Below are positions 140-3,500 of a stretch of DNA of 10,767 nucleotides, in pieces. The notes under the pieces were generated by a model, which made no database searches, was not told the DNA's origin, and saw only the letters and a list, made by a program, of their open reading frames with translations. Where the stretch lies: NCBI GenBank assembly GCA_019348095.1, contig JAHWKC010000062.1:1-10767 (forward strand), in the 5' to 3' direction. Both the position numbers and the translations under genes were made by a program. The stretch's first letter is position 1. Each line of letters begins with the position of its first letter. Source of the DNA: Pseudomonadota bacterium. Its GTDB lineage: Bacteria; Pseudomonadota; Gammaproteobacteria; Xanthomonadales; Xanthomonadaceae.

Positions 140-377
140 CTCACGGCGCTTGGGTGCTCCGTGCCTGCGGTGTGCTTCTGCGGCACGTGGCATGCGCCGC
201 TGCAGATTCTGCGGCTGCGAACCGCAAGCGCGAGGAGGGTGACCGCGACAGCGAGCCCGACCAGGCCAAGCGCGAGGTTGCTGGTCAGGAACCCGGCCGG
301 TAGCAGGAGCGCCCGACCACGAGCAGCTTGACGCCGCAGCACGCAAGGATCGCCACCAGCGGCCCGAGCTGCTTCAC
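136..377 (-). pseudogene. small two-helix membrane protein with a one-base frameshift
   Basis: Starting at a GTG that overlaps the oxidoreductase stop (GTGA, 374-377), the minus strand encodes MKQLGPLVAILACCGVKLLV, then runs into a stop after 30 residues. Moving one base at about 305-320, where a G run (GGG) may have lost a G, restores a second hydrophobic segment (LLLPAGFLTSNLAL and beyond, with LVGLAVAVTLLALAV) that ends at a TAG at 136-138. Together they make a protein of roughly 80 residues with two membrane helices and a Cys-Cys pair in the first. That layout recalls small mercury/metal transport proteins encoded beside mercuric-reductase-like flavoproteins, but the resemblance is only general. 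A real mutation and a sequencing error are equally possible. The tile shares no obvious origin with the main body of the window. Confidence 0.4.
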
Positions 378-556
378 AGCTTGAGCCTCTCGTAGCCCTT
401 GAGCCAGCCCTCGTTGTACGTCGGGAACTGGGCGATCTGGTCGAGCAGACGGTCGATCGGGATGCTCTCGCGCACGGCGAGCGCGGCGGTGTGGATCCAC
501 TCGCTGGCCTGCGGCCCGACCGCCCACGCGCCGATCAGGACGCGCCGGTCGGCGTC
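374..556 (-). CDS. C-terminal fragment of an FAD/NAD(P) disulfide oxidoreductase (mercuric reductase / lipoamide dehydrogenase family)
   Basis: The minus-strand translation ends with [20 protein letters not shown], then IPIDRLLDQIAQFPTYNEGW and a short tail. This matches the end of the dimerisation domain of class I pyridine nucleotide-disulfide oxidoreductases: a 'vlG...vGp.A.E.I...alai' strand-helix followed by the 'ahpT.sE' loop, here in the FPTYNE form common in actinobacterial members. Only about 60 residues are recognisable. Upstream of 556 the frame stays open for 1 kb, but that is only the shadow of the opposite strand, so the FAD and NAD domains and the redox Cys pair are missing. 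Family assignment is good; substrate (mercury, lipoamide or other) is unknown. The break coincides with the first mosaic junction. Confidence 0.6.
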   Translation of the reverse strand, partial: DADRRVLIGAWAVGPQASEWIHTAALAVRESIPIDRLLDQIAQFPTYNEGWLKGYERLKL

Positions 557-3500
557 GGCGAGGCGCTGGCCGCCTATTGCGTCAACCTCAACGAGAAGGC
601 CGACAAGGGCCGCATCGATCCGCTGATCGGGCGCGCCACGGAGGTCAACCGCACCATCCAGATCCTCTGCCGGCGCCAGAAGAACAACCCGCTCTTCGTC
701 GGTGATCCGGGCGTCGGCAAGACCGAGCTTGCGAAGGTGCTCGCGCAGTGCCTGGACGTCCCGCTGCTGCGCCTGCAGTGCTACGAGGGGATCGACGCCG
801 CGCAGGCGCTGCCGGCGGCGGTGCGCGAGATCGCGGGCTGCACCAGCCCGCTGACCGTCGACCTGTCCGGGCTGCCCGACGGCAGCTACGTGCTCACCGT
901 GCGCGCGGTCGACGCGGCGGGCAACGTCGGCGCCGCGCTCAGCGCGACGCACGTGCTCGACAGCACCGCGCTGGCCGCCCCCGACGTGCGCATCGTCGCC
1001 CCGATCCCGGGCAAGTCCGCCATCGGTGTCGAGGTGCCCAACCGCCAGCGCGACCTGATCACGCTCGGCCGCATGCTGCTGTCGGAACTGGCGCCCCTGG
1101 TCAATGCACAGCAGGGCGTGATGTACGTGGTCGAGACCGAGGACGGCCGGCGCCGGCCGCACCTGCGCCAGTTGGCCGGGTACGCCGACACCGCCAGTTC
1201 GCCGACCGCGCCGCGCACGCTGCAGTTCGGCGAGGGCCTGATCGGCCAGTGCGCCGCGCAGGGCCAGCTGATCCTGATCGACAATGCCCCGGCCTACAGC
1301 GCGTCGCTGCAATTCCCGGCCGACAGCGGGCAGTCCAGCGACCTGCAGGCGTCCGCGGTGCAGATCGAATCGGGCCTGCTCAACGTCGTGCCGCGCAGCG
1401 TGATCGTGCTGCCGGTGCTGTTCGAGGACCAGGTCAAGGCGGTGCTCGAGCTGGCTTCGCTGTCGGAGTTCACCCGCTCCCAGCGCGCGTTCCTGGAGCA
1501 GCTCTCGGGCAGCATCGGCATCGTGCTCAACACAATCGAGTCGACCATGCGCACCGAGCGGCTGCTGGCGCAATCGCAGCAGCTGGCCGGCGAATTGCAA
1601 TCGCAGCAGAACGAGCTGCAGCAGACCAACGAGGACATCGCGCTGAAGGCGGCGCTGCTGGCCGAACAGAAAGCCGAGGTCGAGCAGAAGAACCAGCAGA
1701 TCGAGCACGCCCGCCGCGCGCTGGAGGAAAAGGCCGCGGAACTGGCGCTGACCTCGCGCTACAAGTCCGAGTTCCTGGCCAACATGTCGCACGAGCTGCG
1801 CACGCCGCTCAACAGCATCCTGATCCTGGGCCAGCAGCTGGCGGAGAACCACGAGACCAACCTCAACCCGCGCCAGGTGGAGTTCGCCAAGACCATCCAT
1901 GCCGCCGGCACCGACCTGCTGCACCTGATCAGCGACATCCTGGACCTGTCCAAGATCGAGTCGGGCACCGTCACCGTCGACAGCGAGGACCTGTCCTTCG
2001 AGCACCTGCGCGAAAACCTGGGGCGCGGCTTCCGCCACGAGGCCGAGCGCCGCCACCTGGAGTTCTCGCTGGAGATCGAGCCCGAACTCGGCACCGCCCT
2101 GCACACCGACCCCAAGCGCCTGCAGCAGATCCTCAAGAACCTGCTGTCCAACGCCTTCAAGTTCACCGAGCAAGGCAGCGTGCGGCTGCGGGCGCGCAAG
2201 GCCAGCAGCGGCTGGAGCGAGGGCCACGACGTACTCGACCACGCCCAGACCGTGGTCGCCTTCGAAGTCAGCGACACCGGCATCGGCATTTCGCCGGAAA
2301 AGCAGAAGATCGTGTTCGAGGCGTTCCAGCAGGCCGACGCCGGCACCTCGCGCAAGTTCGGCGGCACCGGCCTGGGCCTGGCGATCAGTCGCGAGATCGC
2401 CGGCCTGCTCGGCGGCGAACTGCGCCTGCACAGCACCGTCGGCGAAGGCAGCACCTTCATCCTGTACCTGCCGCTGAACTACGTCGGTGCCGACCGCGCC
2501 CACAGCGCGCGCGCGGCCCAGGCGATGGCGCAGACCAGCAGCGCGCAGGAGCCGCCGGTGCGCGTGCTGGAGCATGTCCTGGAGCGCGTGGCCGACGACC
2601 GCGACCTGCTCGCGCCGGGCGAGCCGATCCTGATGGTGGTCGAGGACGATGCGCGCTACGCCAGCGTGCTGCGCGACCACGGCCGTTCGCAGGGCTTCCG
2701 CGTGCTGGTCGCCAACACCGGCACCGAGGCATTGCGACTGGTGCGCGACTACAAACCGACCGCCATTTCGCTGGATATCGTCCTGCCCGACATGCTCGGC
2801 TGGACCGTGCTGGCGCGGCTGAAGCAGGATTCGTCGACACGACACATCCCGGTGCAGATCGTCACCGTGGAGGAGGAGCGCCAGCAGAGCATCGAGCGCG
2901 GCGCGTTCGCCTACCTGGCCAAGCCGGCCAGCACCGAGACCATCGATGCGGCGCTGCAGCGGATCAAGGACTACACCCTGCCGCGCGTCAAGCGCCTGCT
3001 GATCGTGGAGGACGACGCCAACGAGCGCATGAGCATCGAGGAGTTGATCCGGCACGATGACCTCGCCATCGACACCGTCGGCACCGGCACCGAAGCCCTG
3101 GCCGCACTGGATGCGACCCGCTACGACTGCGCGGTGGTCGACCTGCGCCTGCCCGACATGAGCGGCTTCGAGCTGCTCGACCGGATCCAGGCGCAGCCGA
3201 CCCTGCACGAGCTGCCGATCGTGGTGTTCACCGGCAAGGACCTCAGCGCCGAGGAGGACCTGCGCCTCAAGAAGGTCGCCAAGAGCGTCGTTATCAAGGG
3301 TGTGGAATCGCCCGAACGCCTGCTCGATGAAACCGCGCTGTTCCTGCACCGGGTCATTGCCGACCTGCCGCCGGGCAAGCAGCGCATGGTCGAGCGCCTG
3401 CACACATCCGACGAGGTGCTGCAGGACAAGCGCGTGCTGGTGGTCGATGACGACGTGCGCAACATCTTCGCGCTGTCCAGCGTGCTGGAGCGCCACGGGA

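Follow-up and report, generated by a model that had tools for sequence, protein, structure and literature searches.

Partial gene cores chained at one end of a Xanthomonadaceae-type contig are very probably an assembly error

Introduction

How does a single bacterial contig come to carry, within about its first kilobase, fragments of several protein families that have nothing to do with one another, all running into a sensor kinase gene? The window analysed here is the entire contig C439 (10,767 bases), which belongs to a genome bin of 2.71 Mb in 480 contigs that is 72% complete and 1.4% contaminated. The chain of fragments makes up the first ~1,043 bases, at the end of the contig: bases 1-1043 hold unrelated and incomplete protein cores, and from base 1044 onwards the sequence is that of a Xanthomonadaceae-type hybrid sensor kinase. 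A first-pass annotation of this DNA had preferred assembly chimerism as the explanation. The other ways to arrive at such a chain are a real mosaic of captured genes, a faithful contig placed in the wrong bin, and a chimera made in the laboratory before assembly.

Results

Matches to Pfam and NCBIfam models bear out that the left end is a run of unrelated partial protein cores, and they are more than chance would give. From left to right these are an oxidoreductase, ClpA, MoxR, a HAD-like hydrolase, an Ig-like repeat and FtsK, followed by the kinase. The chain stands as it had been described, while the count of five pieces does not, because six precede the kinase; the one overlooked (bases 789-838) is an exact copy of a segment of contig C230. 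To the left of the oxidoreductase, and downstream of that fragment, lies the contig edge (1-373), to which no family is assigned: the plasmid DNA search gave no match before base 376, the ORF at 3-242 on the plus strand has no Pfam match with an E-value of 1 or lower, and the ORF at 136-342 on the minus strand has a single Pfam match, below cut-off (E 0.097). By eye, a small hydrophobic protein can be read on the minus strand at 136-380, split over two frames near 300-320 in the manner of a sequence error. The window as a whole has no Rfam match and no tRNA, and no recombinase is found among those of its ORFs that were scanned with Pfam. The tetranucleotide comparison that had been proposed as a check goes part of the way: bases 1-1043 rank at the 6th percentile among 254 pieces from contig interiors, which is mildly atypical and lends chimerism weak support.

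The pieces have their nearest relatives in the Actinomycetota, in the Alphaproteobacteria and in the genome itself, in agreement with the mixed lineage first proposed for them. The first piece (374-562, minus strand) is the C-terminus of a pyridine nucleotide-disulfide oxidoreductase, Actinomycetota-like, with a Pyr_redox_dim match (PF02852) at 374-559 and E 8.5e-7. Its DNA is 80% identical at 376-562 to a Cellulosimicrobium plasmid gene, and all ten records that it matched in the plasmid collection, the one source of these matches, bear Actinomycetota genus names. The ClpA core (557-725, plus strand) is alphaproteobacteria-like. It corresponds to positions 165-229 of the 734 in the ClpA model (E 3e-27), shows 84.6% nucleotide identity to a Methylobacterium aquaticum plasmid and has an exact run of 31 nt (695-725) in common with locus L113, and the best 80 of 354 matching genome loci carry Alphaproteobacteria in their titles apart from three that are titled Proteobacteria only. 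The genome's own ClpA gene, on contig C61, is only 76% identical to the piece in nucleotides.

The MoxR-family ATPase core (701-811, plus strand) matches positions 34-76 of the 298 in the MadB model (E 1.9e-10), and its plasmid relatives, annotated as MoxR, match from 701-710 to 796-811 in all ten listed; the genome's own full AAA_3 (MoxR-type) domains number two, on C107 and C188. After it comes the exact 50-nt copy of C230:535-584 (789-838, plus strand), which on C230 belongs natively to a HAD-like hydrolase gene, close to its 3' end. The Ig-like piece (817-982, plus strand) is one unit of a bacterial Ig-like repeat protein, with 79% identity over 57 amino acids to the Ig-repeat protein P0001 and a Big_13 match below the Pfam cut-off (E 0.0025). 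The last piece (967-1043, plus strand) is the end of an FtsK alpha domain, Actinomycetota-like, covering positions 76-101 of the 101 in the FtsK_alpha profile (PF17854, E 6.9e-7). Over 60-87 bases it is 78-85% identical in nucleotides to plasmids of Streptosporangium, Streptomyces and Georgenia, and nine of the eleven records matched in the plasmid collection, to which these figures refer, are from Actinomycetota genera. Since the bin holds no other FtsK_alpha match than this piece, the genome's own FtsK could be its source.

How these pieces are joined can be read in detail at the 50-base bridge. Five MoxR relatives were considered there and three were used for the register, Deinococcus and Shinella being out of register and left out. 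These three share much of the left part of the bridge and read TAC at 812-814, so that the word common to MoxR and the HAD-like gene is at most 789-811 (23 nt). On the other side the Ig relative P0001 reads AVREISGCTSP at the join, which limits the word common to the HAD-like gene and the Ig repeat to about 817-838 (about 21-22 nt). The bridge thus consists of two overlaps with its neighbours, each of at most ~21-23 bases, with about 6 bases between them. Such a structure looks like the trace left by an assembler moving through a de Bruijn graph at k near 21, and it would be hard to obtain otherwise. In an exact-word comparison of 44 contigs including the window (one of them all N, and C425 and C436 taken to 20,000 bases only), this 50-mer is the second-longest shared word and the longest between different contigs.

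The remaining joins are seen less sharply, and the overlap is bounded on both sides in two of the seven (MoxR/HAD and HAD/Ig). Relatives of ClpA match up to 725 and those of MoxR from 701-710, overlapping only around the Walker A motif at about 701-725, which places the join inside this shared region and the shared word at about 25 nt at most. At the oxidoreductase/ClpA join the relatives of both overlap at 557-562 at least, at the Ig/FtsK join around 967-982, and FtsK relatives are partly alignable beyond the join with the kinase. The overlap lengths at these three joins and at the right end of the contig are loosely bounded because the source genomes were not found.

A sharp break lies where the chain meets the kinase. 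The segment 1044-3793 (plus strand) is the genuine C-terminal part of a hybrid histidine kinase, truncated at its 5' side, with the Pfam domains GAF-HisKA-HATPase_c-REC-REC-REC. Among 40 genomes including its own, searched at E at most 1e-100, it was found in 11 including its own. Six same-family genomes match essentially the full query at 79-83% protein identity; a same-order genome reaches 69%, and G003 has 78%, there confined to residues 1-489. Of the 12 matches outside its own genome, eight loci (L025-L032) were compared at the join and four, with 44-47% identity, were left out. Ungapped 30-nt identity to the eight rises from 0.27-0.40 at 1014-1043 to 0.83-0.97 at 1044-1073, falling again from about 1134 where the register is lost. 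A junction had been suggested at 1042-1055, and these relatives fix the switch between 1043 and 1044. Upstream of it the DNA of the eight is mutually alike; two of their proteins read LKSNLAKFSDMMQG-HRDLITLG and LKTNMATFSNMMQG-QRDLVTLG at the join, and what precedes the kinase in the relatives is HAMP repeats, not FtsK. Locus L032 has five HAMP stretches upstream of the join, and both L032 and L025 have five copies at a spacing of 276 bp with 69-91% identity to the reference copy.

The segment is thus like a multi-HAMP hybrid histidine kinase in that HisKA, HATPase_c and REC domains are present, and unlike it in that the array which the relatives have at the N-terminus is absent from C439. A search for the missing part on the other contigs of the genome gave one weak match only, at 20% identity. 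Repeats are a usual breakpoint for short-read assemblies, and the 276-bp repeats found upstream in the relatives may explain why the assembly broke at the kinase; we attribute the loss of the HAMP array to assembly. Two more sensor-kinase ORFs follow the hybrid kinase at 3703-6287, one with two REC domains and HisKA-HATPase_c and the other with HisKA-HATPase_c.

The position of the switch also bears on the possibility that the contig is faithful and merely comes from another organism, as might happen in a bin that is fragmented and 72% complete. Segment 1044-3793 is closest to the same-family genomes searched and the pieces in 1-1043 resemble several other lineages, so the switch at 1044 falls inside the contig, and we reject pure binning error, the chance of which we consider negligible.

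In favour of a real genomic mosaic, in which gene cores of several bacteria were captured beside a truncated sensor kinase, an unbroken open frame leads from the pieces into the kinase. The plus-strand pieces do lie in one frame, as first described (332-3790, 1153 codons), and every plus-strand join keeps it, for which random joining would give a probability of about (1/3)^5. Across the same region, however, the minus strand is likewise open (377-3643, 1089 codons), and with the opposite strand open almost as far the open plus frame means little. With an antisense ORF nearly as long, we rejected codon phase as a sign of function, and we attribute the kept frame to shared motifs in the same codon phase.

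A real mosaic might be expected to recur in relatives, and the arrangement was looked for in several collections. In the two protein searches, each scoring 7,999 candidates, none of the 240 best-listed matches (the best 120 of 7,965 and the best 120 of 5,303) contained more than one piece in one protein at E at most 0.01; 239 had the Clp piece only and one the Ig piece only. The widest cover of the query was up to 92% in one protein search and up to residues 6-158 in genome loci. Among the best 80 of 354 loci on genome contigs, the five widest (L046, L084, L098, L069 and L090) are ordinary ClpA. Viral contigs gave two loci only, with the Clp part only (residues 7-67 and 6-68), and among plasmids and phages no record covered 80% of the chain. 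Among the matches listed, then, no independent genome showed the arrangement.

These results speak against the mosaic from several sides: the arrangement sits at a contig end, no relative among the matches listed carries it, the kinase gene of eight relatives continues straight across the join, and the sequence shared at two joins is no longer than ~21-23 bases. We reject the mosaic on the eight relatives that run through the join and on the absence of the arrangement among listed relatives, and hold it to be extremely improbable. Its more specific form, a real locus that captured ATPase and repeat-protein cores of several lineages and fused them in frame to the sensor kinase, is a shade less credible still. 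Were it real, the locus would represent gene capture of a kind for which we know no precedent; we find nothing that supports it.

The opposite end of C439 was found to be of a similar kind. There (10497-10767, minus strand) a type I polyketide synthase, represented by its acyltransferase end, is joined to another gene. The minus-strand ORF concerned spans 10191-10766; its first 90 or so residues are the acyltransferase end, with E 1e-19 to the polyketide synthase model over residues 2-85, and matches to the listed plasmid polyketide synthase relatives begin at residue 2-6 and end at 83-90. Residues 76-192 are 54% identical to a gene of genome G023, in which the join position carries GELARALD. 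This second gene runs from about 10517 down to 10191, with a shared stretch at about 10497-10517, and was found in G023 alone of the seven relatives searched; the acyltransferase part also has weak matches in G005 and on the genome's own contig C433. The right end, over about 250 bases, is therefore chimeric as well.

Other contigs of the genome were scanned for comparable ends. The left end of C61 (1-1280), where the genome's own ClpA gene is joined to an oppositely oriented LysR gene, is another chimeric contig end. In a Pfam scan covering 12 of the 20 ends of C1-C10 (18 ORFs), three ends had a single frame running through parts of unrelated families, namely aldehyde dehydrogenase with SLT_2 on C5, flagellin with LPG_synthase_TM on C9 and short-chain dehydrogenase with MFS_3 on C10, the second family being under the Pfam cut-off in each. 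Such joins occurred in none of 20 interior ORFs, ten of which had a Pfam family. The contrast leans towards chimeric ends without reaching significance: for 3 of 12 ends against 0 of the 10 interior ORFs to which a family was assigned, a one-sided Fisher test, calculated by hand, gives about 0.14. Nor are overlaps at contig ends generally over-represented among the 100 longest of the 1,043 words shared by the 44 contigs; by eye these words are mostly recurrent dispersed and tandem repeats. Palindromic repeats were noted at 7546-7750 of the window, with arms at 7546-7577/7719-7750 and 7594-7625/7656-7687. Exact copies of 7708-7740 and 7712-7742 occur on C428 and C20, which makes 7546-7750 look like a dispersed REP-like element.

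Discussion

Our reading is that bases 1-1043 and about 10517-10767 are chimeric tails from a short-read de Bruijn metagenome assembler run at a small k (about 21), and we put its probability at roughly 0.96. Short-read assemblers do use k of about 21. Joins lie in the end regions of the contig, over 1,043 bases on the left and about 250 on the right; exact words of about k bases are common to the neighbours at MoxR/HAD and HAD/Ig; and the pieces come from different loci or organisms, as given by the exact locus for 789-838 and by nearest relatives for the others. On sequence evidence, the first-pass preference for assembly chimerism has strong support: the kinase sets in abruptly at 1044, a 50-base bridge links its two neighbours, the pieces have mixed sources, and the chimeric stretches lie at contig ends. 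That the arrangement is unseen among listed relatives adds to this. We infer the value of k, the assembler, the coverage and the role of the repeats in the sample.

A path of the following kind could have produced the left end. The true kinase gene would extend upstream into a tandem array of 276-bp HAMP repeats, as it does in the relatives, and the assembler would lose the true path at this repeat tangle. It would then walk on through 21-mers common to unrelated genes from other organisms that had been sampled, leaving each gene within a conserved or compositionally similar motif, from FtsK to the Ig repeat, the HAD-like hydrolase, MoxR, ClpA and finally the oxidoreductase.

Much of this could in principle also arise before assembly, if PCR or whole-genome amplification switched templates across organisms and the product was then faithfully assembled. 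The pieces are short, and template switching too can use short homologies at the joins. It would need six successive switches in about 500 bp, which is far easier for a walk through a graph than for molecules; one of the pieces is just 50 bp long with about 6 bp of it unique, and the opposite contig end is chimeric too. A laboratory chimera is accordingly improbable in our view, if less so than the mosaic or a binning error.

Chimeric contigs have been described before, in PMC3901335 and PMC4585024, for simulated, largely viral metagenome assemblies. The former traces chimeras to sequence conservation, as in housekeeping genes, which fits the remark in the first-pass annotation that each piece is a conserved core. 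In both papers most chimeras joined related taxa, at the lower taxonomic levels, and in PMC3901335 de Bruijn assemblers gave fewer of them than overlap assemblers; the two observations count against a simple chimera reading of C439. The left end is like the interspecies chimeric contigs of these papers in that unrelated sources are joined through common sequence. It differs in that chimeras are there counted per contig, whereas C439 has several very short pieces, resembling different phyla, within about 1 kb of one contig end.

For the biology of this organism, the gene scraps at the left end are very probably an assembly error without biological meaning. The tails of C439, and probably those of other contigs of the same genome, should not be used for annotation, and the gene count of this genome should include neither the predicted 1,100-residue protein nor the FtsK, Ig-repeat, ClpA-like and polyketide synthase pieces.
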